NCBI RefSeq assembly: GCF_947495705.1
Contig: NZ_CANLZR010000011.1
Location: 1 to 64,000, forward strand
Length of the DNA: 64,000 nt
From: an uncultured Phycicoccus sp.
Lineage (GTDB): Bacteria; Actinomycetota; Actinomycetes; Actinomycetales; Dermatophilaceae
Direction of reading: 5' to 3'
Part shown: piece after piece, positions 6,834-22,715 of the stretch
Layout: each line of letters begins with the position of its first letter
Position numbering within the stretch: the first letter of the stretch is position 1
Translations under genes and position numbers: made by a program
The notes under the pieces: generated by a model
The model's database searches: none
Told to the model about the DNA's origin: nothing
The model's input: only the letters and a program-made list of their open reading frames with translations

Positions 6834-7453
6834 TGGCCAAGGCCTTCCGGCGTCAGGGCAAGGGCGCGGACCGCCGCTACGTCGCGACGCTCGACGCCGA
6901 CGAGCGCGAGATCGTCGCGACGCTCATGGAGCAGGTCGCCGACCTGCTCGAGGCACCCGACGTCGCGGGGACCGGGGACGCGCGGTTCGACGCGATCGTC
7001 GCCGGGATGACCTTCTCGGGGGACCCCCACGAGGCGACGAGCCGGGGCCGCACCGCCGGCGGGGGCCAGCGCGACCCGGCCCTGGACCGGCTCCTGCCGA
7101 CGGCCAACCGGCAGGACCCCGAGGCGGCCGACGAGTTCCGGCACCTCACCGAGGGCGGCATCCGGCACCGCAAGGCGGCGGGGCTCGCGGCCTCGGTCGC
7201 CGCGGTGCGCGCCGCGAGCGGGGACGACGTCGTGCTCGACGCCGACCAGTCCCGGGCGTTCCTCACCGCGCTCACCGACGTGCGCCTGGTGCTCGGCGAA
7301 CGGCTGGGCCTGCACACCGACGAGGACGTCGAGGCGGTCGAGGCGCGTGCCGACTCCTCGGACCCGGACGACCCGCTCGTGTACGCCGTGGCGCTGTACG
7401 ACTTCCTCACCTGGCTCCAGGAGACCCTCGCGACCGCACTCCTGAGGCGGTGA
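6833..7453 (+). CDS. DUF2017 family protein
   Basis: A 206-residue, mostly helical, soluble protein of unknown function. It follows clpS across most actinobacteria, so a role tied to Clp proteolysis is often supposed but not shown. The first 45 residues (KGADRRYVATLDADEREIV) and the C-terminal helical part (ADQSRAFLTALTDVRLVLGERL) match the family's usual pattern. The middle region (about 65-90) is Gly/Arg rich and probably flexible. ATG 6833 overlaps the clpS stop; its own stop overlaps the GTG of the VanZ-like gene. Confidence 0.85.
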   Translation: MAKAFRRQGKGADRRYVATLDADEREIVATLMEQVADLLEAPDVAGTGDARFDAIVAGMTFSGDPHEATSRGRTAGGGQRDPALDRLLPTANRQDPEAADEFRHLTEGGIRHRKAAGLAASVAAVRAASGDDVVLDADQSRAFLTALTDVRLVLGERLGLHTDEDVEAVEARADSSDPDDPLVYAVALYDFLTWLQETLATALLRR

Positions 7454-7905
7454 CGCCCGTGCGACGCCCCGGGGCCGGGGCGGCCGTCGTCCTCGCCGTG
7501 CTCCTCGTGCCGGTGCTGCTGTGGCCCGACGGCGAGGCCGTGCGCCGCGTCGTCGTCGACGGCTACGTGGTCCTGCTCGAGCGGGGGATGCCGCAGCAGG
7601 TCCGGCCGGAGCACTACGCGGCCCTGCTCAACGTGCTCGTCTTCGTCCCGTTGGGGTGGCTCGGGGTGGCCGCCCTGCGCGCCCGCGTCCTGACGACCGT
7701 CCTCGTGCTGGCGGGTCTCAGCGGCGCCGTCGAGCTCGCCCAGCTGCTGCCGGTCATGGAGCGCCAGGCGAGCCTGCTCGACGTCGCCTGCAACACGGCC
7801 GGCGCCGCCGTCGGGGCGCTCGTCGCGTCACGCGTACGTCAGCACGCCGGCCGCGACGAGGTCGTCGACGAACCGGGTGACGTCGTCCGCGACGACCTCG
7901 GCTGA
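7450..7905 (+). CDS. VanZ-like membrane protein
   Basis: A 151-residue protein with four hydrophobic segments (about 9-24, 61-78, 83-101, 111-129). The VanZ pattern is visible: LLNVLVFVPLGW, then ELAQLL and LDVACNTAGAAVGAL, i.e. N..F.P.G, E..Q and D...N..G. VanZ proteins affect teicoplanin resistance in enterococci; the role in actinobacteria is unknown. GTG 7450 overlaps the previous stop (GTGA). The last 26 codons overlap the end of the convergent PqqD gene by 78 bases, an unusually long tail overlap. Confidence 0.8.
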   Translation: MTPVRRPGAGAAVVLAVLLVPVLLWPDGEAVRRVVVDGYVVLLERGMPQQVRPEHYAALLNVLVFVPLGWLGVAALRARVLTTVLVLAGLSGAVELAQLLPVMERQASLLDVACNTAGAAVGALVASRVRQHAGRDEVVDEPGDVVRDDLG

Positions 7906-8097
7906 GGTCTCCGCCGCGGCGGCCACCCGCGCGACGACCTCGGTGAGCGTCCCGCCCGGGACCGCCGCTCGCCACACGAGCGCGCCCGGGCCGTGCAGGA
8001 CCAGGGGTGGGCCGTCGGGGAGCGCGGCCGCGTAGACGACACCGTCGACCTCGACCCAGCCCGCGGCGGCACTGACCTCGACACCCGGCGCTGTCAT
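7828..8097 (-). CDS. PqqD-like peptide-binding protein
   Basis: An 89-residue protein with the PqqD/RRE winged-helix pattern: a start strand (WVEVDGVVYAAALPDG), then PLVLHGPGALVWRAAV, then a helical ADDVTRFVDDLVAAGVLTY end. PqqD domains bind leader peptides in RiPP pathways, but small PqqD proteins also occur in polysaccharide loci beside nucleotidyltransferases. ATG 8097 overlaps the stop of the nucleotidyltransferase gene (ATGA), so it is the last gene of the minus-strand glycan series. No radical SAM or other RiPP enzyme is nearby. Ligand unknown. Confidence 0.82.
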   Translation of the reverse strand: MTAPGVEVSAAAGWVEVDGVVYAAALPDGPPLVLHGPGALVWRAAVPGGTLTEVVARVAAAAETSAEVVADDVTRFVDDLVAAGVLTYA

Positions 8098-8993
8098 CGG
8101 CGGACCATCCGGCCCGCCACGGCCCCCACCCCGGTGCGCAGCCGCCGGACGAACTCGGCGGCGACGTCGGACCCGGTCGGCTCGTGCCCGAGCCGCTGCC
8201 GCAGGTAGTACCGGTTCACCCCGAGAGACCGGACGGCCACCGAGACCTTGGCCGCGGGGCCGCGGGCGGCCCGCCAGCGGGCCCGCCACTCGCCGAGCCG
8301 GTCGTCCTCCCGGGCGAAGACCTCCCACAACGCCGCCTCCGGCGTTCCGGCGTGCCGGGCGAGCTCACCGATGGCCGCGGCCAGGGCGACCGTCGCCCCG
8401 GTGCGCTCCGCCAGTGCGCGCAGGGCGTCCCGGTCGGCGGCGGTGCGCTCGGTCCAGTTCGGGGCGATGTCGGGATGCTCGCCCGCCGTGCGGGTCCGGG
8501 CCGCGTGCAGCAGCAGCACCAGGGACTGCCCCAGCGGGCTCGGCACGGCGCAGGCGACGTGGGCGAGCGGGCGGGCGCCGCGCTCGGCCCACAGCACCTC
8601 GAAGGCCGCCGCGGGCTCGTGGTCCATCCCGGGGTAGAGGCGGTGGACGTCGACGAGCCCCCAGCTGGGGTGGTACAGGTTCGCCGCGTGGTCGAAGGCC
8701 GACCCCGCCTCGAACGTCGTCTCGACCCGCCACCCGTGGGCGGCGAGGGCGGCCATGAGCCGGTCGACCCCGTCGGGGCGCACCAGGACGTCGGCGTCGG
8801 AGCCCGAGGACTCGTGACGACGCAGCCCGGGGTCGACGGCCGGACCCTTGATGTGGAGCACGTCGACCCCGCACGAGTCGGCGAGGCGCTGCACGGCGGC
8901 GTGCGCCAGCTCGACCCGCACCCGCAGGGGGACGGCCTGGCCCTCGGACACGAGCCCACTGTAGGTGGGCGCGCCGGTGCGCGGTGGCAGCAT
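8094..8993 (-). CDS. Nucleotidyltransferase-fold family protein
   Basis: A 299-residue protein with a nucleotidyltransferase-5-like core: VLHIKGPAVDPGLRR then SSGSDADVLVRPDGVDRLMAALAAHGW, where the D-x-D (SDAD) would hold metal, and LVDVHR as the third acidic strand. A helical C-terminal half follows. Members of this family sit beside PqqD and, in proteobacteria, HprK-related kinases in exopolysaccharide/HPr-rel-A loci; substrates are not known. ATG 8993 starts 11 bases after the preceding gene. Its end overlaps pqqD. Confidence 0.75.
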   Translation of the reverse strand: MLPPRTGAPTYSGLVSEGQAVPLRVRVELAHAAVQRLADSCGVDVLHIKGPAVDPGLRRHESSGSDADVLVRPDGVDRLMAALAAHGWRVETTFEAGSAFDHAANLYHPSWGLVDVHRLYPGMDHEPAAAFEVLWAERGARPLAHVACAVPSPLGQSLVLLLHAARTRTAGEHPDIAPNWTERTAADRDALRALAERTGATVALAAAIGELARHAGTPEAALWEVFAREDDRLGEWRARWRAARGPAAKVSVAVRSLGVNRYYLRQRLGHEPTGSDVAAEFVRRLRTGVGAVAGRMVRR

Positions 8994-9004
8994 CGGGCCG
9001 GTCG

Positions 9005-10597
9005 TCAGTACGCGCCGCGCGCCCGGACCACGGCCGAGGCGGTGCGCCACAGGATGGCGAGATCCTGCACGAGCGACCAGTTGTCGACGTAGTACAGGTC
9101 GAGGCGCACCGAGTCCTCCCACGACAGGTCGGAGCGGCCCGACACCTGCCACAGCCCGGTCATGCCCGGGCGCACCGCGAGCCGGGTGCGGACGTCGTCG
9201 GTGTACCGCTCGACCTCGCCCGGCAGCGGTGGGCGTGGCCCGACGAGGCTCATCTCGCCGCGGAGGACGTTGAGGAACTGGGGGGTCTCGTCGATCGAGA
9301 AGCGCCGGATCACCCGGCCGGGGGGAGTGACCCGCGGGTCGGTGGCGTCCTTGAACAGCACGTGCTCCTCGCCGTGCATGTTGCGCGGGGTGCGCTCGCC
9401 GGTCGGGGCGTCGGCGTCGATGACCATCGAGCGGAACTTCAGGCAGTCGAAGAGCTCGCCGCCGCGACCGACCCGTCGTTGCCGGAAGATGACGGGCCCT
9501 CCGTCGTGGCGTCGGATCGCGAGGGCCGTGACGAGGAGCAGGGGGCTCGCGAGGACGAGGCACAGGCCGGCCCCGACGATGTCGAAGGCCCGTTTGGACA
9601 CCCGGCTCGCCCGGTGCGCGCGCGGACCCTCGAGCTCCATGAGGTGCAGCCCGGCCGCCGGTCGGACCCGCACCCGGTCGGTCGCGACCTCGGTGAGGCT
9701 CGGGACGAGCATGATCTGCACGTCGGTGTCGTCGAGGTCCCAGGCGGTCCGGCGCATCTGCTGGGCGGAGGTCACGGCGCCGCCGGCGAACAGGACGATG
9801 TCGCAGGCCACCTCGGCGGCTACGGCTGCGGTGCGGGCCGTCGAGCCGAGTACGGGGATGCCGCCCGGGGTGCCGGTGCCGGACTCGCCGGCGGGCAGCA
9901 GGGCGCCGACGACCCGGAACCCGAGCCACGGCTCGCGTCGCAGCACGTCGGCCACCTCGTCGACCTGGCCCGCCGACCCGGCGACGACGACGCGGTGGGT
10001 GAGGTGCCCGCGCCGGCGCAGCGCGTGGATGGCCCGACGCAGCAGGTAGCGGCCGAGGAGCAGCGAGGGGACGCCGAAGAGGAGGAGGAGGAAGAAGAAC
10101 CCCCGGGACAGCGGGACCTTGCCGAGGAAGCTCACGACGCCGATGGCACCGGCGGTGACGAGCGACGCCCGGACGATGACCTTGTACTCCTGGGTGCCGG
10201 CGCCGAGCAGGTGCGGGGCGTACCCGCCGTGGAGCGCGATGATGGCGACCCAGCCGACGACGATCGGCGCTCCCGCCATGGCGACGAGCTCGGGGACGTC
10301 GCCGACGTCGACGAACACCGGGAGCCGGGCCCGCCCGAACCCCGCGGCCAGCGTGACGAGCACGGCGAGGGCGAGGTCGACGAGGACGGCAGCGGCCGCG
10401 GGGGCGCGGCGGTTCCAGCGGGCGGAACGGGCGGCGAGCCGGGGCGCGAGGAGCTCGTTGACGGTCATCGGCGGCCTGGGGTCGGGAGTGTCGGGGGTGC
10501 CAGTATGGCCAGGCCCGGCGCTGTGCGGGGCCACGCCGGGGTCCTCCCGTCCGTTCGGACGAGGGCGGCGGTCCGGCCCGTGCTCAGGCACGGTCAC
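9005..10597 (-). CDS. Polyprenyl glycosylphosphotransferase (WbaP-like sugar transferase)
   Basis: A 530-residue integral membrane enzyme that starts glycan assembly by moving a sugar-1-phosphate from an NDP-sugar to undecaprenyl phosphate. An N-terminal set of about four membrane segments (residues roughly 65-170) leads to a Rossmann-like CoA-binding-type domain (HRVVVAGSAGQVDEV). The catalytic C-terminal bacterial sugar transferase domain has KRAFDIVGAG, FKDATDPRVTPPGR, SIDETPQFLNVLRGEMSLVG, PRPPLP and PGMTGLWQV. GTG 10597 lies within the end of the upstream gene; ATG 10468 (MTVNELL) is a shorter alternative. The sugar cannot be predicted. Confidence 0.92.
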   Translation of the reverse strand: MTVPEHGPDRRPRPNGREDPGVAPHSAGPGHTGTPDTPDPRPPMTVNELLAPRLAARSARWNRRAPAAAAVLVDLALAVLVTLAAGFGRARLPVFVDVGDVPELVAMAGAPIVVGWVAIIALHGGYAPHLLGAGTQEYKVIVRASLVTAGAIGVVSFLGKVPLSRGFFFLLLLFGVPSLLLGRYLLRRAIHALRRRGHLTHRVVVAGSAGQVDEVADVLRREPWLGFRVVGALLPAGESGTGTPGGIPVLGSTARTAAVAAEVACDIVLFAGGAVTSAQQMRRTAWDLDDTDVQIMLVPSLTEVATDRVRVRPAAGLHLMELEGPRAHRASRVSKRAFDIVGAGLCLVLASPLLLVTALAIRRHDGGPVIFRQRRVGRGGELFDCLKFRSMVIDADAPTGERTPRNMHGEEHVLFKDATDPRVTPPGRVIRRFSIDETPQFLNVLRGEMSLVGPRPPLPGEVERYTDDVRTRLAVRPGMTGLWQVSGRSDLSWEDSVRLDLYYVDNWSLVQDLAILWRTASAVVRARGAY

Positions 10598-11705
10598 GCG
10601 CCCCCAACAGGTGGACCTCGTCCCGGAGCCGCGTCGCGAAGCCGGCCTCGGCGAACCCAGCGGCGTGGGCCCTCAGGATCTCGGGGTCGAACGGTCGCGC
10701 CAGCGACTCGAGGGCACCGGCCCGCAGCAGTGCCGGGTCGGCCCGCTCGACGTACCGGCCGGTGACGCCGTCGCGGACGGTGTCGAGGTACCCGCCGGCG
10801 CCGAGGGTGAGGCTCGGGACCCCGAACGCGGCGGCCTCCAGGGGCGAGAGGCCGTAGTCCTCGATGCTCGGCGCGACGAGGAGACGTGAGTGCGCGTACG
10901 TCCACCGGACCTGGGCGTCGCTGATGCCCGAGACGAGGCGGACGTTGCCGGGCATCCGGGCCAGGAGGGCCTCGCGGCCGGGCCCGTCACCGACGACGAC
11001 GAGCCGCAGGTCGGTGCCCCGGACGGCCTCGACGACCGCGTCGACGTTCTTGTACGGCAGCAGCCGCGACACCACGAGGAGCCAGCCCTGATCGGCCCAG
11101 TCGGCGAGTGCGGGCACCGGCTCCTGAGCGGCAGCGGGGTCCATCGAGTGCGGCGCGGGGACGACGTCGGCGTCGATCCCGTACGTGCTGCGGATCCGGC
11201 TCTGGACGATGCGGGAGTTCGCGAGGTAGCGGTCGTTGCGGCGGGCAGCGTTCGCGTCCCATCGGCGCAGCGGGGGTCGCATCGCGAGGAGTGCGACCCC
11301 TTTCGCCGACCGCGCCGGCGAGCCGCCGAGGTAGGTGGCGCTCTGGTAGAGCCAGCGGGCCGGGCTGTGGCAGTAGACGATGGACCGCCCGGTGTGCCGG
11401 AACCCGTGGGCCCAGCCGCTGGAGGAGACGAGGGTGACGTCGGCGTCCACCGTCATCGCGCTCGCGGCCGGGGCGAACAGCGGCAGGCCCACCCGGTGGT
11501 CACGGCGTACCGGCCCGATCCGGTTGAGTGGCGAGGTGACGATGTCGTGGTCGGCGAACTCGGGGTAGGTCGTTCCAGGCTCGTACAGCGTGGTGTGGAT
11601 CCGCGCCTCGGGGAAGGCCCGGGCCATGGCGAGGACCACCCGTTCGGCGCCGCCCCGCTGGGTGAGGTAGTCGTGGGCGATGGCCACCGGGGGGCGCGCA
11701 CTCAC
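10584..11705 (-). CDS. Glycosyltransferase family 4
   Basis: A 373-residue GT-B enzyme. The N-terminal domain begins VAIAHDYLTQRGGAERV, a signature of GT4 enzymes that act early on lipid-linked sugars. The C-terminal nucleotide-binding domain holds VSRLLPYKNVDAVVEA and the E-x7-E motif in SIEDYGLSPLEAAAFG. GTG 11705 overlaps the stop of the 48-codon gene upstream (GTGA), implying translational coupling. Acts at the cytoplasmic membrane face; donor and acceptor unknown. Confidence 0.9.
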   Translation of the reverse strand: MSARPPVAIAHDYLTQRGGAERVVLAMARAFPEARIHTTLYEPGTTYPEFADHDIVTSPLNRIGPVRRDHRVGLPLFAPAASAMTVDADVTLVSSSGWAHGFRHTGRSIVYCHSPARWLYQSATYLGGSPARSAKGVALLAMRPPLRRWDANAARRNDRYLANSRIVQSRIRSTYGIDADVVPAPHSMDPAAAQEPVPALADWADQGWLLVVSRLLPYKNVDAVVEAVRGTDLRLVVVGDGPGREALLARMPGNVRLVSGISDAQVRWTYAHSRLLVAPSIEDYGLSPLEAAAFGVPSLTLGAGGYLDTVRDGVTGRYVERADPALLRAGALESLARPFDPEILRAHAAGFAEAGFATRLRDEVHLLGARDRA

Positions 11706-11848
11706 GCTGCGACCCGCTCGGACCCGGTGCGCAGGCCAGGTCGCGAGGGCAGGACTGGGGCACCCGGGGCGGCGGTCTCGTCGCGGACGTCGCCGAGCAC
11801 CTCCGAGTCCTGGCCGCCGGCGATGCCGGTGCTGAGAGCACGACTCAT
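11702..11848 (-). CDS. 48-residue small protein, unknown
   Basis: A short gene that fits the gap between two glycosyltransferase genes. It reads MSRALSTGIAGGQDSEVLGD, then a Pro/Gly/Ala-rich tail ending SERVAA. Most third positions are G or C, as in real genes here. The stop overlaps the GTG of the next glycosyltransferase (GTGA), the same junction type used throughout the operon. A GACACT box six bases before the ATG suggests a leaderless start and a promoter inside the operon. There are no Cys, no membrane segment and no known domain. It could be a leader/regulatory peptide, a small complex subunit, or (with PqqD in the same operon) a modified peptide. Coding status is inference from context. 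Confidence 0.5.
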   Translation of the reverse strand: MSRALSTGIAGGQDSEVLGDVRDETAAPGAPVLPSRPGLRTGSERVAA

Positions 11849-11854
11849 GAGGAC

Positions 11855-11860
11855 AGTGTC
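11855..11860 (-). promoter_or_regulatory. Possible internal leaderless promoter
   Basis: On the minus strand GACACT precedes ATG 11848 by six bases, in the only intergenic gap (34 bases) of the middle of the glycan operon. First base departs from the TAnnnT form, so the call is weak. Confidence 0.35.
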
Positions 11861-11882
11861 GCCTTCGCTGTGTGGTGAGCGG

Positions 11883-12917
11883 TCATCCTCGCAGACCAGC
11901 CGTGACCTGGACCCCGAGGTGATGGGTCAAGGCAGCCGCGGTCCGCTCCGCGACACGCTCCCACGTCCATGCCGCCGATCGCGCCGGACCCGCCAGAGCG
12001 AGCTCGCCGGCGCGGACCTGGTCGGTCAGGACGGTCGCCATGGCAGTGGCCATCGCCTCGACGTCGTGGGGGTCGGCGTAGAGGCCGGCGTCCCCGACGA
12101 CCTCGGGGAGGGAGGTCGTCGACGAGGTGACCACCGGGGTGCCGCAGGCCATCGCCTCGAGCGCCGGGAGGCCGAAGCCTTCGTGGGTCGACAGGACCAG
12201 CACCGCTGCGGCGCCCCGGTACGCCTGGGCGAGTCCGATGTCGTCGAGTCGGCCGAGGAACCCGATCCGGTCCAGCACGCCGACGTCCTCCGCGAGGGCG
12301 CGGACGCGCGGCGCCGGGTCTCCGCTGAAGAGCAACAGCGTGTCGTCCGTGCCTCGCGCGAAGGCCTCGAGCATCCGGGGCAGGTTCTTGTGGGGCTTGT
12401 GGTTCCCGACGTAGAGGAGGTAGTCCTTCGGCTCCTGGCGGCAGGGGCCGTCGGGGCTGAACGTCGAGCTCACCCCGTTCCCGACGGTGACGACGCGCTC
12501 CGGCGGTAGACCGGCCCAGCGGAGGATGCGCGAGCGGGAGTGGTCGGAGACGGTGAGGACGACAGCGGCCGATCGCACGGACCGCAGAACGACGGTGTCG
12601 AGATACGCGCGCCGGGCGCGCCCGGCCTCTCCCGGCACGTCGCGGTGCATCAGGTCGTGGATCACGACCGCGGTCGGAGCGGGCCAGCTCAAGGGCGCCA
12701 TGAACCCGGGGCACACGAGCGCCCGGGGGGTGGGTCTCCGGCGTTCTCGCACCGAGGCCAGCTCGAGGTCGAGCAGCCCGCGAAGGGAGGCCGGCGCGGC
12801 GTCCCCCGCGGCGATCGGGGGGATGCCGAGGCGGCCGCGCACCTCACGGCTGAAACGTCCGATGCCGCTGACCACCTCCCAGCGGGTGTCCCACGCGATC
12901 GTCGACGGCGGGGTCAC
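11883..12917 (-). CDS. Glycosyltransferase family 4
   Basis: A 344-residue GT-B enzyme of the mannosyltransferase-B-like type: TAVVIHDLMHRDVPG in the N-terminal domain, then LLYVGNHKPHKNLPRMLEAF (donor site) and STHEGFGLPALEAMACGTPVV with the E-x7-E pair. GTG 12917 overlaps the stop of the upstream gene (GTGA); it is the last gene before the 34-base gap that holds the possible internal promoter. Probably adds an internal sugar of the repeat unit; specificity unknown. Confidence 0.9.
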   Translation of the reverse strand: MTPPSTIAWDTRWEVVSGIGRFSREVRGRLGIPPIAAGDAAPASLRGLLDLELASVRERRRPTPRALVCPGFMAPLSWPAPTAVVIHDLMHRDVPGEAGRARRAYLDTVVLRSVRSAAVVLTVSDHSRSRILRWAGLPPERVVTVGNGVSSTFSPDGPCRQEPKDYLLYVGNHKPHKNLPRMLEAFARGTDDTLLLFSGDPAPRVRALAEDVGVLDRIGFLGRLDDIGLAQAYRGAAAVLVLSTHEGFGLPALEAMACGTPVVTSSTTSLPEVVGDAGLYADPHDVEAMATAMATVLTDQVRAGELALAGPARSAAWTWERVAERTAAALTHHLGVQVTAGLRG

Positions 12918-13981
12918 GTGCGCACCTCGCGGTAGACCTGGGCGATGTCGGCGCACATCTGGGCCCGGGTGGGCCAGCCGGCGGGCAGGGCCGGCCGAGT
13001 CGACGGCTCGAGCCCCTGCCGGGCGACGGCATCCGCGACGGCGGCCGGCTCGTCGTGCGGCACGAGGGCCGCGGAGGGCAGGATCTCGGTGTTGCCACCC
13101 ACCGGTGTGGCGACGACGCCCACCCCGTGGACGAGGGCGTCGAGGAGGGAGTACGAGCAGTTCTCCCACACCGACAGCTGGACGAGGACGTCGGACCGCC
13201 CGAGCAGGTCCGCGGCGTCGACGTGCCCGGGGAGCTCGGTGGCGTCGGCGAGGCCGAGCTCGTCGACGAGGCGGCGCACCGGCTCCTCCAGCGCGCCGGT
13301 CCCGGCGAGGGTCAGCCGGGCACCGGGATGGGTCGCGGCCAGCGTGGCGAAGGCCCGGACGAGCGCGTCGAGCCGCTTCTCGGGGGCGAACCGGGCGATC
13401 GAGCACACGTGCAGGCCCGGCGCCCGCTGCTCGCGGTGGGGGAGCGGGTCGACCCCGTTGCGGACGACGCGCACCCGGGTCGAGCGGCCCGGATGCCACC
13501 GGGCCCGCACGCTGCGCGCGGTCGCCTCGGACACCGCGATGACGGCATCGGCCCGGCGGAGCCGCGCGGTGTGCAGCGCCGCCTTGGCCCGGGACCGCCA
13601 CACGGTGCGGTGGTACACGAGGTCGTCATCGGCGATGCCGTGCTCGGTGCTCACGAGGGCGGTGCCCGAGCCCACGGTCGCGGCGGCCGTGACGACGTCG
13701 GCCCAGGACAGGTGGGAGTGGACGACGGCGGGGCGTCGCTCCCGCACGGCTGCGCGCGTCGCGATGAGGGCCGAGCGCCCTCCGTGCTCCGGGCCCACGG
13801 GGCCGGTCGTGACGTCCGCGCCGCCGGCCCGCAGCCGGTCCGCGAGCGGACCGGGCGGGCACAGGACGGCCACCCGGTACCCGGGGATCCCGACCTCGGT
13901 GACGTCCAGGACATGGCGTGCGACCCCCCCGAGGTCGGAGACCGGGAGGACCCACAGGGCCAGCGGAGCCGTCAGAACCAC
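12914..13981 (-). CDS. Glycosyltransferase family 4
   Basis: A 355-residue GT-B enzyme. N-terminal LPVSDLGGVARHVLDV and VVHSHLSWADVV acceptor-side motifs; C-terminal VCSIARFAPEKRLDALVRAF and SVWENCSYSLLDALVHGVGVV, where the first Glu of the usual E-x7-E remains and the second position is Asp. The start GTG 13981 overlaps the end of the NeuB fusion gene by ten bases and has no better alternative in frame close by. Part of the same translationally coupled series. Confidence 0.87.
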   Translation of the reverse strand: MVLTAPLALWVLPVSDLGGVARHVLDVTEVGIPGYRVAVLCPPGPLADRLRAGGADVTTGPVGPEHGGRSALIATRAAVRERRPAVVHSHLSWADVVTAAATVGSGTALVSTEHGIADDDLVYHRTVWRSRAKAALHTARLRRADAVIAVSEATARSVRARWHPGRSTRVRVVRNGVDPLPHREQRAPGLHVCSIARFAPEKRLDALVRAFATLAATHPGARLTLAGTGALEEPVRRLVDELGLADATELPGHVDAADLLGRSDVLVQLSVWENCSYSLLDALVHGVGVVATPVGGNTEILPSAALVPHDEPAAVADAVARQGLEPSTRPALPAGWPTRAQMCADIAQVYREVRT

Positions 13982-16245
13982 TGCTCCAGCCGTTCGAGCG
14001 CCACCCAGAAGCCCTCGCCGTGGTTGACGTGCCCCTGCCAGATCTCCGGGATGAACGGGACCCCGGGGGCCTGCGCGTCGAGCTGCTCGGCGAGCACGGG
14101 CCAGTCGATCTCGCCGTCCCCGACCTGCGGGCCCTCGCCGTCGACCCCGACGGCGTCGACGAGGTGCAGGTGGATGGTGTGCGGCGCGAGGAGGTCGACG
14201 GCGTCCCGGAACGAGCGCCCGAGGAAGTTCGTCGCGAGCTTGGTGTGCGAGGTGTCGAGCGTCAGCGGGATGCCGGTGGAGCGGGCGAAGTCGGCGGTGT
14301 CGTCGGGGTCGAGGAAGAGGTTGTGGAAGTGCTGGCCTCCGATGAGCCACGGGTACGGGGGGAGGGTCTGGGCCGTGAGCCGGACCCCGGCGCTGTCCAC
14401 CTGGGCCACGGCGGCCTCGACCCGCTCGTACCGGATCGCGCGCTCCGCAGGGTCGAGGTGCCGGTCGGAGGTGAAGCCGCCCATCGTCGCGACGACGACG
14501 GGGTCGTCGGTGAGGGTGAACCACTGCGCGAGCCGGCGGGTCACGTCGATCGTGCGCTGCAGCTCGTGGATCGACCGCTTCCAGGTGTCGTCGTCGAGGG
14601 AGGCGAGGTCGACGATGAAGTCCCGGGAGAACAGGTCGGGCAGGTGCGTCGTGAACGCCATGCCGAGCACGCCCGCGCGGTCGGTGCAGTGGTCGGGAAG
14701 GTCCCGGAAGAACGCCTCGGGCTCGAGCTCGAGGTCCTTGTACGAGAGGTGGAACTCGAGGAAGTCCGGCCGGGTGTCCGCGACGAGCTGGCGCCAGTCG
14801 TGGTAGCGGACCGGGACGCCCCACGGCCTGCGGAACGTGTAGTCGCGGGCCGTCGGCACGGAGTCGGCGAGGTCCGAGGCGTAGAAGAAGTCACCGGCCG
14901 CCAGCGGCCGGTTGGCGGTCCGCCCGACGAGCCGGTCCATCGCGTTCGGCTGGAGCCCGCGGCCGGGGCTCTTGACGTCGACGGCGGGGCGGTCGATGAC
15001 CTCGCCCGGCGCGATGTCCCGGGCGGCGACGAGGCTCTTGGCGAGGTTGACCCGGTTCATCATCTCGCCGGTCGACACCTGACGCGGTGCGCCGCTCCCC
15101 AGAGCCTCCTCGACCTCGCGGATGCGCACGACCATCGCGCGCAGCTCGTCGGGCAGGAGCGAGACGGTGTGGTCGTTGCCCTCCATGGACCGGTCGACGG
15201 TGACGTGCTTCTCGATGATCGTCGCGCCCAGGGCCACGGCCGCCAGCGGGACGTGGAACCCGCGTTCGTGCCCGGAGTAGCCCACCGGGCAGTCGCCGAG
15301 CTCGGCGAGCCGGGCCAGGTAACGCAGGTGGACGTCCTTGAAGGGCGCCGGGTACGTCGACTGGCAGTGCAGCAGGGCGAACGGCGTGCCCGTGCCGCGC
15401 AGGAGCGCGACGCTCTCGCGGATCTCGGCCTCGGTCGACATCCCGGTCGAGACGACGAGCGGGGTGGCCGACGCGGCCGCATGGCGCAGCAGCGTGTGGT
15501 TCGTCAGGTCGGCCGAGGCGATCTTGAGCGCGGGCACGCCGTACTCGACGAGGGCGTCGACGCTCGGGGCGTCCCAGGGGGTGCACATGACGTCGACCCC
15601 GACGTCGCGGGCGTGGTCGAACACCTCGAAGAGGGACTCGGCGGGGAGGTTGACCCTCGAGAGCAGGTCCAGGGTGTACTGCGGACCGAGATCCTCCCCG
15701 GCGCTGCTGCCCGCCGTGCCGCGGTACAGGGCCGCCATGTCGCGGAGCTGGAACTTCACCGCGTCGGCCCCGGCCTCGGCCGACAGCTCGACGAGGCGCT
15801 TCGCGAGCTCGACGGACCCGTTGTGGTTGTTGCCGATCTCGGCGATGACGAACACCGCCTGGTCCTTGCCGACCTCGCGACGGCCGACCCGGAAGGCGTC
15901 GCTGCGGTTGACCGCGACGGCGACGAGGTGCCCGTGCTCGTCGAGGATCGGGATGTGGTCGACGGCCTCGGTGAACAGGGGCCGGATCTCGGACGGGGTG
16001 GCGGCCTCGGGAACGCTGACCGGGGCGGTGTTCGCCACGTCGGAGCACGGACGCGAGAGGTCCACGGCATCCTGGCCGGCCATCCAGCGGCGGACGTCGC
16101 CGTCGGAGATCGAACCGACGAGGTGGCCGTGCTCGGTGACGCAGAAGACGATGCGGGCCTTGTTCGCCGTGATCTTCTCGAGCGCCCTCAGGACGGGGTC
16201 CTCGCGGTAGACGACGAACGGGGTGACGGTGCGCTCGATGATCAC
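13972..16245 (-). CDS. CBS-NeuB-SAF-TIM barrel fusion, nonulosonate synthase type
   Basis: A 757-residue multidomain protein. Residues 1-125 are two CBS motifs (RIVFCVTEHGHLVGSISDGD; HIPILDEHGHLVAV) likely to bind a nucleotide. Residues 126-390 are a NeuB-type synthase TIM barrel with FVIAEIGNNHNG, DAVKFQ, KIASADLTNH and GYSGHERG, which condenses phosphoenolpyruvate with a hexose to a nine-carbon sugar acid. Residues 395-460 are an SAF/antifreeze-like domain (KSLVAARDIAPGEVI). Residues 468-757 are a xylose-isomerase-like barrel (LEFHLSYKDL, LDTSHTKLA, IHLHLVDA, IPEIWQGH). Ordinary NeuB has only the two middle parts (about 340 residues). GTG 16245 overlaps the cytidylyltransferase stop. Exact sugar unknown. 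Confidence 0.9.
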   Translation of the reverse strand: MIIERTVTPFVVYREDPVLRALEKITANKARIVFCVTEHGHLVGSISDGDVRRWMAGQDAVDLSRPCSDVANTAPVSVPEAATPSEIRPLFTEAVDHIPILDEHGHLVAVAVNRSDAFRVGRREVGKDQAVFVIAEIGNNHNGSVELAKRLVELSAEAGADAVKFQLRDMAALYRGTAGSSAGEDLGPQYTLDLLSRVNLPAESLFEVFDHARDVGVDVMCTPWDAPSVDALVEYGVPALKIASADLTNHTLLRHAAASATPLVVSTGMSTEAEIRESVALLRGTGTPFALLHCQSTYPAPFKDVHLRYLARLAELGDCPVGYSGHERGFHVPLAAVALGATIIEKHVTVDRSMEGNDHTVSLLPDELRAMVVRIREVEEALGSGAPRQVSTGEMMNRVNLAKSLVAARDIAPGEVIDRPAVDVKSPGRGLQPNAMDRLVGRTANRPLAAGDFFYASDLADSVPTARDYTFRRPWGVPVRYHDWRQLVADTRPDFLEFHLSYKDLELEPEAFFRDLPDHCTDRAGVLGMAFTTHLPDLFSRDFIVDLASLDDDTWKRSIHELQRTIDVTRRLAQWFTLTDDPVVVATMGGFTSDRHLDPAERAIRYERVEAAVAQVDSAGVRLTAQTLPPYPWLIGGQHFHNLFLDPDDTADFARSTGIPLTLDTSHTKLATNFLGRSFRDAVDLLAPHTIHLHLVDAVGVDGEGPQVGDGEIDWPVLAEQLDAQAPGVPFIPEIWQGHVNHGEGFWVALERLEQWF

Positions 16246-16943
16246 GACGTCGCTCCGGGGGCCGTGGTGAGCGAGCGCAGGGTCTGCTCGGCGACCGCGA
16301 GGTCGAGCTCGGTGTCGACGTCGACACCTTCGAGCTCGTCCATGACGAAGAGGCCGACGCGCCCGCCGATCCGGTTGTCCAGCTCGTCGTACACCCAGGT
16401 CCGGGTGAGGTAGAGCGACCCGGTCTCGCGGTACCGGAGGGTCTGCGGGGTCAGGTCCTGGCGGCGGGGGCGGGCGGTCACGTCGTACGCGGCGCTCGGT
16501 TCGGGTCCGTCGGTCCAGATGAACGGGGCCTGCGGGACGACCCCGACGAGCGCGTCGACGCCGGTGGTCTCGAACTGGGCCACGGCCCGCGAGATGGTGC
16601 CCGGGAGCCGGACGGGTGAGGTGGCCTGGAGCAGCATGACGGCGTCAGGTGCAGCGTCGGCAGCGCGCGCGGCGGCGATGGCGTGCCGGACGACGGGTTC
16701 GGTGGGGGTGTCGTCGCGGGCGAGGTCGGCGGGACGCAGGAACGGCACGAGCGCGCCGGCGGCCCGGGCCACGGCGACGATCTCCTCGTCGTCGGTGGAC
16801 ACGACGACGTCCATCGCGGGCCGGGCGGCGAGCGCCTGCTCGACCGTCCAGGTGATGAGGGGCCGCCCCGCGACGGGCCGCACGTTCTTGCGGGGGACGC
16901 CCCGGGACCCGCCGCGTGCGGGGACGACGCAGAGGATCCTCAC
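16242..16943 (-). CDS. CMP-nonulosonate cytidylyltransferase (NeuA/PseF/LegF type)
   Basis: A 233-residue enzyme that would activate the product of the downstream NeuB-type synthase with CTP, giving a CMP-sugar donor. The N-terminal nucleotide loop VVPARGGSRGVPRKNVRPVAGRPL is the family signature; VVVSTDDEEI and LLQATSPVR follow, and DVDTELDLAVAEQ closes the fold. GTG 16943 and its stop overlap both neighbours by four bases. Which CMP-sugar it makes depends on the NeuB product. Confidence 0.92.
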   Translation of the reverse strand: MRILCVVPARGGSRGVPRKNVRPVAGRPLITWTVEQALAARPAMDVVVSTDDEEIVAVARAAGALVPFLRPADLARDDTPTEPVVRHAIAAARAADAAPDAVMLLQATSPVRLPGTISRAVAQFETTGVDALVGVVPQAPFIWTDGPEPSAAYDVTARPRRQDLTPQTLRYRETGSLYLTRTWVYDELDNRIGGRVGLFVMDELEGVDVDTELDLAVAEQTLRSLTTAPGATS

Positions 16944-18001
16944 CTGTTCATCATCCCCTCCACGACGTCGGCCACGGCGCGGGAGGGCTGTACGGCGGGC
17001 CGTTCGGGGGAGGCCGTCGGGGGGCCGCCCCACGGGCTGAGGCCGTACCGGTCCCAGAGGGCGGTGAGCCACGCCGGCGCATCGGGGCAGTACACGTGGG
17101 CGGGCAGGCCGGCGGCGGCGGCCTCGAGCACCCCGGTCGAGAACACACTGACGACGGGCGCGCCGAGCTCGCGCAGCGGGGTCCCCGTGCGGTCGACCGT
17201 GATGCCCGTGGCCTCGAACCGGGTGTGGACCGCGCGCGAGCGCCGGTCGCGCTCGACGGGATGCGGCCGGTAGGTGGCGCCGGTCGTGCGGCAGAAGGTC
17301 TCGGCTGCGGCGACGAGCAGCTCGTGCGGCAGCTCCGCCCCGTGCATCTGCCCGAGGAAGACGGGCGGGACGCCGGGCCGGGCGGGTGACGCGGGCGGCC
17401 GTCCGGCCTCCCAGAGCAGCTCGGAGCCGACGACCGTGGGTCGCACGTCGTCGCGGCCGGCGCCCCAGAAGGCGGCGTCGGCGTCGGACCAGGCGAGCAG
17501 CGTCGTCCCCTCCGCCAGCGGGGGCGCGTGCGGGGTGAGCAGGCCGTGCTGGACGGTGACGAACCGGGCGGGGTCGGTGACCGCGTCGCGCGCCGCGCGG
17601 CCGAGGGGAAGGTAGTGACCGGTCGAGAGCACCGCGGGGGCCCCGGCGGCGAGGCGTGGCAGGTCGTCGTACACGAGGCCGCTCGACTCCCGCCACACCC
17701 AGGTGGGCAGCAGGTCGCGGACGGGCTCGGGCGAGAGCACGGTGACGCCCGCGAGGTCGAGGTGCTCGAGCGGGCGCGCGAGCGCCGACACCGTGCTCGT
17801 CGAGCGGGAGTCGAGGACCACGAGGACGCGCGTGGGTCCGGTGCCGCCGCGGGTGACGACGACCTCGCCCGGCCGGGTGCTCGGTCGCGCGATGTCCGCG
17901 AGGACCCCGGCGAGGTTGCGGACCCGGCGGCGCCACGGCTGACGTTCGAGCTGCCACCGGTGCCAGGCCTCGAGGTCGCGGGGGTGGGTCAGTCCGTCCA
18001 C
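16940..18001 (-). CDS. Putative GT-B-like surface-glycan protein
   Basis: A 353-residue cytosolic protein with no motif I can assign with certainty. Features: RVLVVLDSRSTSTVSALARP near residue 50, RFVTVQHGLLTP, a Rossmann-like PPVFLGQMHG and TYRPHPVERD, and a C-terminal VVSVFSTGVLEAAAAGLPAHVY. The H-P-x-E and S-T-G-V-x-E-A-x-x-x-G pieces resemble those of capsule glycerophosphotransferase and polysialyltransferase-type GT-B enzymes, which fits its place directly before the CMP-sugar gene. GTG 18001 overlaps the previous gene by 13 bases. It may be the transferase that uses the CMP-nonulosonate (inference). Confidence 0.6.
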   Translation of the reverse strand: MDGLTHPRDLEAWHRWQLERQPWRRRVRNLAGVLADIARPSTRPGEVVVTRGGTGPTRVLVVLDSRSTSTVSALARPLEHLDLAGVTVLSPEPVRDLLPTWVWRESSGLVYDDLPRLAAGAPAVLSTGHYLPLGRAARDAVTDPARFVTVQHGLLTPHAPPLAEGTTLLAWSDADAAFWGAGRDDVRPTVVGSELLWEAGRPPASPARPGVPPVFLGQMHGAELPHELLVAAAETFCRTTGATYRPHPVERDRRSRAVHTRFEATGITVDRTGTPLRELGAPVVSVFSTGVLEAAAAGLPAHVYCPDAPAWLTALWDRYGLSPWGGPPTASPERPAVQPSRAVADVVEGMMNR

Positions 18002-19002
18002 AGCGACTCCAGGGCCCGGGCGCGGTGCGCGAAGGTGTGCTCGGCCAGGGTCCGCGCGCGGCCGGCACGGCGCAGCCCGTCGGCCCAGGTCCGGTCCGTG
18101 GCCGCGCGACGGGCCAGCTCGACGGCCTCGTCGGCGTCGGTGAACACCGCGACCTCCGTGTCGGGGTCGTAGTGGAGCGTGACGTCGGCGCGGTCGAGGA
18201 GCTGGACGGCCCCGATCCCGCACGCCTCGAAGGTCCGCATCGTGAAGCCGTCCTGGTCGCCGTGGATGTTGAGGGTCGCCGTCGCGCCCGCCATCACACC
18301 GTAGGCGTCGGCGCGGTCGAGGTCACGGCCGGCGGGGAGGCCGGGCGCGCCGACGCGCCAGGTCCGGAGCCGGTCGACGGGGTGTGGCGACCAGTCCCGC
18401 CCGTAGGCGTGCACCGGGACGCCGGCGGCGGCGAGCCGGCGGAGCGTGGCCTCGCGGGACGGGTACCGGGCCCCGACGAACACGACCTCCTCGCGGGCCG
18501 CGCCGACGGGCCCCACCGGGTGGTCCGGGTCGTGGGCGAGCGGCACGTGCGTCGCCCGGATCCCCCGGGCGGTGAGGGCGGCGACGTCCAGAGGGGAGTA
18601 GGACGCGATCGGACCCGCTGCGGCCAGCGAGCGTCCGTCGTGACCGGTGCGGCGCAGCTCGTCGTACAGCCACAGCACGCGTCGCTGCCGGCGGTCCTCG
18701 AGCAGCTCCCAGAAGGCGTCGTCGAAGGCGTCGCCCTTGACGACGACGAGGACGTCGGGGTCGTGCTCGAGGACGGCGGCCCGGGCCCGGGCGCCGAGCA
18801 TCGCGCGCCGGCGCGTGTCGGACCCGCCGAGCCGCTCGGGCAGGTCGTGGCCGACCTTGGCGGCCAGGCGGGTGAGCCCCCGGTGCTCGTCGTACGGGAC
18901 GGTCCGGACGTCGTGGCCGAGGCCCCGGAGGGCGCGCTCCAGCGAACGCCAGTAGCCGTGGAAGGCCGGGCTGAGGACGAGGATCCGGGTCGGCCGGCTC
19001 AC
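17989..19002 (-). CDS. Glycosyltransferase, CgeB/spore-maturation-like
   Basis: A 337-residue GT-B protein: RILVLSPAFHGYWRSLERAL at the start, DVLVVVKGDAFDD and RRVLWLYDE in the N-terminal domain, then EEVVFVGARYPSREATLRRL and TLNIHGDQDGFTMRTFEACGIGAV in the C-terminal domain, the last being the family's acidic donor-site motif (MRTFEA). CgeB-like enzymes glycosylate surface polymers. GTG 19002 overlaps the epimerase stop (GTGA). Confidence 0.82.
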   Translation of the reverse strand: MSRPTRILVLSPAFHGYWRSLERALRGLGHDVRTVPYDEHRGLTRLAAKVGHDLPERLGGSDTRRRAMLGARARAAVLEHDPDVLVVVKGDAFDDAFWELLEDRRQRRVLWLYDELRRTGHDGRSLAAAGPIASYSPLDVAALTARGIRATHVPLAHDPDHPVGPVGAAREEVVFVGARYPSREATLRRLAAAGVPVHAYGRDWSPHPVDRLRTWRVGAPGLPAGRDLDRADAYGVMAGATATLNIHGDQDGFTMRTFEACGIGAVQLLDRADVTLHYDPDTEVAVFTDADEAVELARRAATDRTWADGLRRAGRARTLAEHTFAHRARALESLWTD

Positions 19003-20063
19003 GAGGTGAGGCCGCGACGGGCCAGCTCGTCGAGGGCGGCGTCCCAGGCCGCGGCACCCGCGCCCGGCCGGTCCCAGGAGCGGCGGATGAAGTCGGCGAC
19101 CGCGTCGTGCGCGCCCCACCGGGGCTCGGGGGCCCCGAGCTCGCGGAGCCGGTCGAGGTCGGCGCAGGCGTGGTCGATGTCGCCGGCCCGGTGGACGTCG
19201 ACGTGCGTGACGCCGGGGGAGCGGACCGGTGCGCCGCTGATCGCGGCCTCGGCGAGCTCGACGAGGGTCGTGCGGACGCCGCTGCCGCAGTTGAGGATCC
19301 GCGGCTCGCCGGGCGGCGGCTGGTGCTCGAGGGCCCAGGCGAGCAGGGCGACGAGGTCGGAGACGTGGACGAGGTCCCGGGTCTGGTGCCCGTCGCCGTA
19401 GACGGTGAGTGCCCGACCTTCTCGCAGCATCGCGAGGAAGGCGGCGAGCACCCCGGTGTAGGGGTTGTGCAGCGCCTGGCCGGGGCCGACGACGTTCTGC
19501 GGCCGCACGACGGTGAGCGGGACCGCGCCCGCCGCCGCCTCGACGGCCGCCGCCTCGGCGAGCGACTTGGTCTCGCCGTACACCGACACGGGGTGGTGGG
19601 GGTCGTCCTCACGGGAGGCGGCCGGGGCCGCCCGCCCGCAGCAGCGCCCGCCGAAGGTCGTGCCGTGCTCGGGGCAGCCGTAACGCCCCTCGCCGTACAC
19701 GGCCCGCGAGCTGAGGGAGAGGAGCGGCAGGCCCCGGGCGGCGGCGAAGCCCGCCGCCAGGCGGGTCCCCTCGACGTTGACCCGGTGGTACCGCTCGACC
19801 TCGTACATCGACTGGCCGGTGCCGGTCTCGGCGGCGAGGTGGACGACGGCCTCGATGCCCCCGGGCAGGTCGCCCCACGCGGCCTCGTCCGCGACGTCAC
19901 CGACGGCGACCCGCCCCGGGAACGCCTCGACGGCCCGGTCCGGGTCCGCGTGCACCTGGGGGAGCAGCAGGTCGAGGGCCAGGACGTCGGCGCCGGCGGC
20001 CACCAGACGACGCGCGAGGTGCTGGCCGATGAAGCCCGCACCCCCGGTGACGAGGACGGTCAC
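18999..20063 (-). CDS. NAD-dependent NDP-sugar epimerase/dehydratase (rhamnose 4-epimerase-like)
   Basis: A 354-residue extended SDR. NAD loop [10 protein letters not shown] at the N terminus; Y-x3-K catalytic pair in [29 protein letters not shown]. Between strands there is a Cys/His insertion (CPEHG ... RCCG) after YGEGRYG, like that of dTDP-L-rhamnose 4-epimerases (Tle type), which may bind zinc. It would interconvert a nucleotide sugar (6-deoxy-talose or similar) for the polymer. GTG 20063 overlaps the acyltransferase stop. Confidence 0.85.
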
Positions 20064-20605
20064 GGGGTGGCTCCCACGACCCGCGCGGGGACGCCCGCGA
20101 CGGTGGCGCCGGCGGGCACGTCGTGGGTGACGACCGCGCCGGCGCCGACGGTGGCGCCCGCACCGATGCTCACCCCGCCGAGGACGACGGCGCGCTGGCC
20201 GATGAACACGTCGTCACCGACGACGACCGGACCCGACCCGTGGACGGCCGACCGGTCGGCACGGTCGTGGTCCGCCGAGCCGATGTACACGTCGTCGACG
20301 ATGTGCACCCGGTCGCCGACCGTGACCGGGTCGAGGCAGTGGATGTGCACGCGGTGGCCGAGGTAGGCGTCGTCCCCGATGTGCAGCGGGCCGCCCCCGG
20401 CCTCGACCTGGAGCCAGACGCCCGCGTTGACCGCGCAGCGCGACCCGATGCGGATGTGCTCGACCCCGCGCAGCACGCGGGGGCGCACGATGACGGACCC
20501 CGGCCCGAAGCCCGCGAACGCGCGGCGGTACAGCGGACCGCGGACGCGGGCGAGGTGCCAGCGGATCGAGGGCGGAGCCTCGACGAGGCGGCGCGCGGCC
20601 CTCAT
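20060..20605 (-). CDS. Left-handed β-helix acyltransferase
   Basis: A 181-residue hexapeptide-repeat protein ([71 protein letters not shown]) of the maltose/WbbJ acetyltransferase type. A His in YIGSADHDR probably serves as catalytic base. Likely O- or N-acetylates a sugar of the glycan using acetyl-CoA. ATG 20605 overlaps the GT2 stop (ATGA). Confidence 0.9.
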
Positions 20606-21510
20606 CGGCGGTCACCGTGGATGAGCCGCCACTCCTCGCGTGCGACGGCGACGGGGTCGACGTCGGACCCCCTGAGGTGGCGGACGACGTTGGCCACGGT
20701 GTTCACGCCGGTGGCCACCGTCAGCGCCACTGCGAGCCGGCGCCGGCCGCCCCAGCGCTGCGCGTAGGCCATCCGGGAGGCGACGAGCCAGCGCCTGCGG
20801 GCCGCCGGGTCCGACGACCCGCCGCCGACGTGGGTGAGCGACACCGTGCCCGCGAACACCGAGGGCAGGCCGCGCTCGCGCAGCCGGCGCTGGAGGTCGA
20901 CCTCCTCGGAGTTCATGAAGTACCGCGGGTCGAAGCCCTGCACGGCGCGGAAGTCCGCCGTGGGCACGAGCATGGCCGCCCCGACGACCCAGTCGACGGA
21001 GAGCACCGCTCCGGGGATCGCCCGGGTGTCGTGGCCGACGGCCTCGTGGAGCAGACGACGCTCCCGGAACCGCGCGAGCGGGGTCAGCCACTCGACGGCG
21101 TGGTGCCGGACCCTGGGGAAGTGGCGGGCGGTGGGAGCCGGCTTCCCCCCGGGGTCGAGGACGAGCGGGCCGACGACCGCGGGGAGCCAGGGGCGGGCGG
21201 CGGCCACGAGGTCGGCCACGAACGTCGGACCCACCGAGACGTCACTGTTGAGGATGAGGAGCAGCGGATGGCGGGCGTGCTCGACCCCGGTGTTGACCGC
21301 GGACCCGAAGCCCCCGTTCGTCGACCGGTGCACGACCTCGGCTCCGTCGAGGTCCCCGAGCGGCTCGGGGGAGTGGTCGTCGACCACGACGATCTGGAGG
21401 GGAGCGTGACGCTGCGCGACGAGGGAGCGCACCGTGTCGCGCGTCGGGGCCGGCGGCCCGTAGTGCGGCACGACGACGGTGACGCCCTCGGCGCGTCGGT
21501 CATCGGGCAT
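20602..21510 (-). CDS. Glycosyltransferase family 2 (rhamnosyltransferase-like)
   Basis: A 302-residue GT-A enzyme: VTVVVPHYG start, [38 protein letters not shown] (the D-x-D equivalent), [10 protein letters not shown] and [18 protein letters not shown] (E-D-x-D-L type acceptor motif). This pattern is common in dTDP-rhamnosyltransferases of actinobacterial glycans. Predicted leaderless start at ATG 21510. It heads a run of four-base overlaps that continues down to the internal gap at 11,849-11,882. Confidence 0.92.
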
Positions 21511-21516
21511 GCGTGG

Positions 21517-21522
21517 ATGCTA
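21517..21522 (-). promoter_or_regulatory. Leaderless -10 element for GT2 and downstream glycan genes
   Basis: TAGCAT on the minus strand, six bases before ATG 21510. It overlaps the last codons of the pyruvyltransferase gene, so the operon may be read both from here and from 22,650. Confidence 0.5.
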
Positions 21523-22650: not shown

Positions 22651-22657
22651 GAGGGAG

Positions 22658-22663
22658 ACGATA
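22658..22663 (-). promoter_or_regulatory. Leaderless -10 element for the glycan operon
   Basis: TATCGT on the minus strand, seven bases before GTG 22650. The 65-base divergent region to the flippase must also hold the opposite promoter, which I could not pin down. Confidence 0.55.
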
Positions 22664-22715
22664 TGGCACGTCGGCCTCGGGACGGTTCCGTACTGCGTTT
22701 CCCCGATGGGCGCCG

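Follow-up and report, generated by a model that had tools for sequence, protein, structure and literature searches.

The window analysed here is a stretch of 64,000 nucleotides (positions 1 to 64,000 of contig NZ_CANLZR010000011.1) from the 3.54 Mb genome of an uncultured Phycicoccus sp. (assembly GCF_947495705.1; G000 below). Our subject is a pair of adjoining genes in this window, which encode a nucleotidyltransferase-fold enzyme (NT) and a small PqqD protein. The latter is predicted to fold as a recognition element (RRE) of the kind known from ribosomally synthesized and post-translationally modified peptides (RiPPs). The pair belongs to five open reading frames (ORFs) at the end of a glycan locus:

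7828–8097, minus strand: PqqD/RRE protein, 89 aa (PF05402, 32.3 bits, cut-off 23.4)
8094–8951, minus strand: NT, nucleotidyltransferase-fold enzyme, 285 aa (PF14907 NTP_transf_5, 36.5 bits, cut-off 31.2)
9005–10597 (possible start 10468), minus strand: WbaP/WcaJ-type polyprenyl phosphoglycosyl transferase (PGT; PF02397, 219.9 bits; TIGR03025, 411.8 bits, cut-off 295.55)
10584–11705, minus strand: GT4 glycosyltransferase of the glycan locus (PF00534, 66.6 bits)
11702–11848, minus strand: 48-codon ORF (48 aa), probably not a gene, no family match
11883–24191, region without strand: rest of the glycan locus, with Pfam matches to GT4s, a CBS-NeuB-SAF-TIM-barrel fusion, a cytidylyltransferase, an epimerase, a hexapeptide transferase, a GT2, a pyruvyl transferase and a Wzx-like flippase

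A preliminary description of this DNA had reported five consecutive minus-strand ORFs, and they are indeed present at these coordinates, four of them with family matches. Its statement that they are joined mostly by four-base overlaps is true of only two of the four junctions, namely small ORF/GT4 and NT/PqqD. PGT and NT are separated by 53 bp (8952–9004). The PGT gene overlaps GT4 by 14 bases if its first start codon at 10597 is used, and begins 115 bp after GT4 if the start is at 10468, which agrees with the called starts in two of the five congeners with the locus (L035 and L038). A possible internal promoter had also been proposed, and a scan of 7600–12200 for sites of the sigma-70 type, the only type searched, returned none. 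At the other end of the unit, a VanZ-like gene on the plus strand converges with the minus-strand PqqD gene in a 78-base overlap (7450–8097), and L035 is arranged alike.

The conserved core of the locus is NT–PqqD. PqqD directly adjoins NT in 32 of the 39 fetched NT loci, and in three (L061, L063 and L071) both domains lie in one open frame. What recurs from the proposed five-gene unit is this pair, and not the full order. The named relatives of NT belong to four Phycicoccus strains and one actinomycete metagenome-assembled genome. P. flavus CMS6Z-2 and strain HDW14 are among the Phycicoccus that have the locus; the first scan of genome contigs, with NT alone, gave no relative. NT scores above the PF14907 cut-off, and K29, G30, D46, D48, D95 and H97 (numbered in the aligned stretch) are invariant in 38 aligned sequences, including the D-x-D (D46, D48) and the third acidic residue, D95. 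To our knowledge, neither NTP_transf_5 proteins nor stand-alone PqqD domains outside RiPP clusters have an established function. The window's PqqD scores above the PF05402 cut-off, and its structural model has the features of an RRE, folding like the B1 recognition domains of lasso peptides, with TbiB1 and 6jx3 at 21 and 14% identity. This is the fold of RRE domains that bind peptides. The literature reports W/Y/LxxP as a recognition sequence for domains of this type.

The preliminary description had also remarked that no kinase is present. This is true near the locus, but the genome encodes a divergent HprK-like kinase fused to PqqD on another contig (G000:C3:216-1397), unlinked to NT. An HprK-like P-loop protein lies near NT in 11 of 38 fetched NT loci (5.9–20 kb), and in four of these 11 (L041, L045, L046 and L048) the kinase is fused to a C-terminal PqqD domain. 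As a probe for this kinase, PF07475 was rejected, with 0 of 35 genomes over the cut-off. Since PF07475 misses the kinase, a family-specific profile (A3) was needed; it was built from 11 HprK-like kinases, and presence was called at E<=1e-40. The first sample comprised 98 related genomes, in which NT presence was called at E<=1e-8. Weak NT hits in G065 (4.1e-5) and G078 (9.2e-4) and kinase hits in G081 (1.7e-13) and G092 (8.6e-13) were scored as absent. The genomes are a sample, and all counts depend on these thresholds. The kinase was found in 37 of the 98 genomes, that is, in 35 of the 35 NT-positive genomes versus 2 of the 63 NT-negative ones (G014 and G027). The distance between kinase and NT is at most 12 kb in 11 of the 35 genomes; in the other 24 it exceeds 12 kb or the two lie on different contigs. 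The Phycicoccus kinase–PqqD proteins are 382–411 aa long and adjoin App1-like and fpg genes, and a clpC-like gene lies beside the kinase in 6 of 14 other fetched kinase loci (neighbour names are from sequence reading). All six congeneric kinases have a C-terminal PqqD match and keep GTGKT/GAGKT and SDET/TDET. Beside the distal kinase of three congeners lie secreted proteins whose GNQV...PV...GNA repeats resemble those of chaplins (L092 10820–12871, L095 10796–13226 and L093 7077–9200).

In several loci, secreted proteins with RR...GAAWxxP were spotted adjoining the kinase, NT or PqqD genes. They share an N-terminal leader of the twin-arginine translocation (Tat) type with the consensus RRxxxxGAAWxxPxI...APAxAAS. 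A profile of 38 positions (A6) was built from 12 leaders of seven genomes, and matches were accepted at E<=1e-3. The profile matched in 39 of the 98 genomes: all 35 NT-positive genomes, from 30 genera, versus 4 of the 63 NT-negative genomes (G014, G070, G078 and G081). There were 131 matches in total, 1–16 per genome. With the seven seed genomes removed, the counts were 28 of 28 versus 4 of 63 (Fisher 1.6e-19), and such recounts counter the rejected idea that circularity of the profiles caused the co-occurrence. Among the 12 congeneric genomes compared, G000 included, NT was present in six, and leaders were found in 6 of 6 NT-positive versus 0 of 6 NT-negative genomes. The window's genome encodes two leader proteins, around G000:C2:239915 and G000:C1:467874; one of its leader proteins is a CKxPG protein of 162 aa. 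The twin arginine is nearly invariant (first R in 57 of 58, second in 59 of 59). At the AxA site, position 27 is A in 46 of 59 and position 29 is A or S in 57 of 58; position 31, just past the site, is Ser or Thr in 56 of 58. The leaders thus have the sequence features of Tat substrates (twin arginine, hydrophobic stretch and AxA), with export as a prediction. The proteins are mostly 130–360 aa long. In one leader protein (L195, G005:C29) WR stands in place of the twin arginine and GAAWSVP is kept. In L067 (14375–17512), five tandem Tat-leader proteins with differing mature parts follow a kinase gene and a PqqD gene.

A marker tree, from a quick IQ-TREE run under LG+G4, covered 61 genomes and 701 columns of an MBL-fold protein, RNase PH and RdgB, the first of these being present in 47 rows only. 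On this tree, NT required 13 changes, the kinase 11 and the leader 12. Ten independent pairs separated by supported branches differed in NT; in these, the leader changed the same way in 9.5 and the opposite way in 0 (p ~0.002), and the kinase in 9.2 and 0. Without the seed genomes nine pairs were left, with the leader changing the same way in 8.6 and the opposite way in 0. These 9–10 pairs, none of them opposite, counter phylogenetic inertia as the sole cause of the co-occurrence, which we had considered. Because the sister pair G006 and G007 differs, the former with the system and the latter without, gain or loss can be recent. We also drew 394 genomes from across the class, some of them common to the first sample, and searched these for kinase and leader, scoring the top 7 kinase and top 19 leader candidates per genome. 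Leaders were found in 17 of 19 kinase-positive versus 14 of 375 kinase-negative genomes. Outside the first sample, they were found in 13 of 15 kinase-positive genomes, and also in 12 kinase-negative ones.

The genes also lie close together in part of the loci. Of 45 kinase hits, 14 have a leader no more than 3 kb away, where 0.30 would be expected; for NT the figures are 8 of 42 hits and 0.28. With the leader seed genomes set aside, 8 of 36 kinase hits have such a neighbour (0.26 expected, P 5e-10), and in the class-wide draw outside the first sample a leader lies within 3.3 kb of 7 of 16 kinase hits. The majority of leaders, 111 of 131, are more than 3 kb from every kinase or NT hit. In L041, leader, kinase–PqqD, NT and PqqD stand in a row on one strand, and no displayed neighbour there matched the window's glycosyltransferases. 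In L045, also on one strand, the intact kinase (8155–9207) is followed by a second kinase-like protein with a PqqD domain (10557–11765), then leader, NT and PqqD. The P-loop of the second protein is apparently degenerate, and it is possibly a pseudokinase partner.

NT, kinase and leader are therefore associated by strong co-occurrence, by co-localisation and by correlated change on the tree. Together with the RRE fold predicted for PqqD and intact catalytic motifs, this makes it somewhat probable, in our judgement, that NT and PqqD are parts of a genome-dispersed protein-modification system, of which the kinase would be a third part and the Tat-leader proteins the substrates. In such a system, both PqqD domains, the one encoded next to NT and the one fused to the kinase, would recognise the leader in the cytoplasm by its W-x-x-P stretch and so deliver the protein to each of the two enzymes. 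A Ser or Thr would be phosphorylated by the kinase, leader position 31 being a candidate, and NT would add a nucleotidyl or sugar group onto that phosphate, by analogy with what is reported for PsmK and PsmN on a lasso peptide. Binding of the leader may also delay Tat export until modification is complete. Since NT–PqqD of Phycicoccus lies inside a glycan locus, the mark could link glycan and protein, and there it may be the attachment point of the Wzx-type locus glycan. The lack of a match to the window's type of glycosyltransferase among the displayed neighbours in L041 means that the glycan may not be a required partner. In its most specific form, which we put forward tentatively and hold to be rather doubtful, the GAAWxxP Tat leader would guide proteins to kinase–PqqD and NTP_transf_5–PqqD, which would build a phospho-sugar or phospho-nucleotide as a dispersed, RRE-guided protein tag; in glycan-producing strains the mark would anchor exopolysaccharide to exported proteins. 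The predicted RRE fold and a plausible Tat-leader partner family encoded elsewhere support, in its main lines, the earlier suggestion of a PqqD that binds a peptide in the service of nucleotidyl transfer, but with a peptide other than the 48-codon product. A shared leader that tracks NT and PqqD defines candidate substrates that can be tested, connects recognition of the RiPP kind with Tat export and may help to explain how certain exported proteins of actinobacteria might be modified. In the open-licence PMC literature we found no description of the proposed system as a whole, of a GAAWxxP leader family, of a link between Tat signals and RREs or of a link between PqqD and exosortase.

Several observations weigh against a protein-modification system of this kind. 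In the first sample, G014 has kinase and leader without NT, G027 has the kinase alone, G070 and G078 have a leader match without kinase (G078 with only the weak NT hit), and G081 combines a leader (3.4e-4) with the weak kinase match (1.7e-13) that was scored as negative. In the class-wide draw, the 14 kinase-negative genomes with leader matches include 4 at E<=1e-5 and 10 weaker, and G395 and G307 have a kinase without leader. The marker tree was made quickly, and 19 of its 58 inner branches have good support. Seven of the 39 NT loci (L040, L046, L059, L062, L064, L065 and L072) are without an adjacent PqqD by the profile used, and in L046 PqqD lies 1.3 kb from NT. The structural model of NT was poor, with a predicted local distance difference test score (pLDDT) of 55 from a 6-row alignment, and was left out of the fold search. 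Twin arginine, hydrophobic stretch and AxA are ordinary features of Tat signals, so WxxP could serve the Tat machinery. Finally, five NT-negative congeners lack the entire glycan locus at its usual position, so that in Phycicoccus the glycan, and not NT–PqqD, could be what the association reflects. In G001, G003, G007, G008 and G009, 15–40 kb beside RNase PH/murI held no match to the glycan genes of 11883–24191, GT4, PGT, NT, PqqD or VanZ (tblastn, E<=1e-10), and murI is directly followed by DUF2017 and clpS; the sixth NT-negative congener, G002, was left out of this comparison.

This last point bears on an explanation in which the target of NT, PqqD and the kinase is glycan synthesis itself, for example by nucleotidylating or phosphorylating a polysaccharide enzyme, and the Tat-leader surface proteins merely accompany the same envelope type. 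The Phycicoccus NT–PqqD pair was gained or lost together with the whole glycan locus, and single-linkage clustering of the neighbours in the 39 NT loci gave CpsD/Wzc-like genes in 24, LMW (low-molecular-weight)-phosphatase-like genes in 18 and phosphoglycosyl transferases in 16. We nevertheless hold this explanation to be unlikely. L041 holds the system and a leader protein with displayed neighbours that do not match the window's glycosyltransferases, the kinase is mostly far from NT, as counted above, leaders cluster near kinases far above chance, and CpsD-like homologues (36–47% identical) occur in the NT-negative and leader-negative congeners G002, G008 and G009.

GT4 was present in the same six genomes as NT, but the five-gene order was uninterrupted in none of the five congeners with the locus. 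In all five, a CpsD/Wzc-like gene of 473–503 codons sits on the opposite strand between PGT and NT, and on this evidence we assign PGT to the glycan locus and not to the NT–PqqD pair. The name CpsD/Wzc-like is a label from sequence reading: the scanned copy, L036, matches ParA/CbiA/AAA_31 in Pfam, and for proteins of this type adjoining NT, a Wzz match was found in 8 of 53 downstream neighbours. The orthologue is 74–80% identical among the congeners and is absent from the window's genome and from 8952–9004. The only copy in this genome, on contig C7, is 42% identical and of a sort that also occurs in G006 and G010, so the window's operon arrangement most simply arose by loss of the orthologue. 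In the rest of the glycan locus, a 757-aa fusion of CBS, NeuB, SAF and xylose-isomerase-like TIM-barrel domains (13972–16245) lies beside a cytidylyltransferase (16242–16943); together they resemble a pathway for a sugar of the nonulosonate type, the fusion being unusual.

Chaperones that bind Tat signals are known for cofactor enzymes, and PqqD could be a Tat proofreading chaperone only, which holds the GAAWxxP signal until the protein is folded, with kinase and NT regulating PqqD or the export machinery and not the cargo. The twin arginine and AxA of the leader fit this role, as does the occurrence of PqqD domains next to NT as well as within the kinase protein. Yet none of five leader proteins scanned had a confident match to a cofactor-enzyme family, and a kinase and a transferase with intact motifs suggest covalent chemistry, which makes a pure chaperone quite improbable.

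We give almost no credence to the first version of all, in which the peptide bound by PqqD is encoded by the 48-codon ORF heading the five-gene unit: the ORF exists and overlaps GT4 by four bases, but it has no homologue where the PqqD/NT pair is conserved, its coding signal is weak, and the unit is split by another gene in all five congeners with the locus. The ORF had no Pfam or NCBIfam match at E<=1, and its best match in 11 congeners (E 0.014) lies within an unrelated 334-codon frame. Its G+C content at third codon positions is 40/48, versus about 0.94 in the neighbouring genes (P 0.007), and it is probably not a gene. In three of the five congeners GT4 overlaps the preceding gene by 4–17 bases; in L037 and L039 a 143-bp gap precedes the called GT4 start, and the protein search lists no small-ORF match there. 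The missing homologues and the weak third-position signal are also why we rejected it as a RiPP precursor.

We compared the protein-modification system proposed here with known ones. HprK_rel_A (TIGR04352) and its partners form the HPr-rel-A type cassettes, which likewise combine an HprK-like kinase, a PqqD-like protein and a nucleotidyltransferase. TIGR04352 was the top NCBIfam match for 5 of 8 scanned kinases (L041, L045, L046, L048 and L051) and the second or third for L066, L070 and the window genome's L091. However, these kinases score 18–35 bits (18.3–35 for the first seven, 20.6 for the window genome's) against a cut-off of 200. Among NCBIfam models, the window's PqqD at E<=1 matched only NF033530 (24.5 bits, cut-off 70) and TIGR04302 (20.7, cut-off 100), which also sets it apart from the HPr-rel-A type. 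The distance of the kinase from NT in 24 of the 35 genomes and the Tat-leader family as partner differ as well. TorD and DmsD are Tat-signal chaperones of cofactor enzymes with a fold unrelated to PqqD. They share with our proposal the binding of a Tat signal ahead of export, but the scanned partners here are not recognisable redox enzymes. In PEP-CTERM/exosortase systems, many dispersed proteins carry one short signal that tracks a processing enzyme. The signal common to dispersed proteins tracks an enzyme here too, but it is an N-terminal Tat-type WxxP leader, and kinase, NT and PqqD take the place of a protease. The lasso B1/PqqD RRE domains are distant from the window's PqqD, at the identities given above for TbiB1 and 6jx3, and their partner peptide differs. 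In the pseudomycoidin cluster, according to a review, PsmK phosphorylates the C-terminal Ser, and the presence of one or two hexoses on it requires PsmN, an annotated nucleotidyltransferase, or else PsmN adds a nucleotide that is extended by a host enzyme (PMC9266682). Unlike that cluster, the components here are dispersed in the genome, the partners are exported proteins mostly of 130–360 aa with Tat-type signals, and the 25 Pfam families most frequent in the 56 upstream and 53 downstream NT neighbours, to which the comparison extends, include neither an asparagine-synthetase-like lasso cyclase nor a transglutaminase-like B2 protease. What the two share is a kinase with a nucleotidyltransferase homologue (PsmN being set beside NT by its annotation), a lasso-type RRE and a W/YxxP-like recognition sequence.

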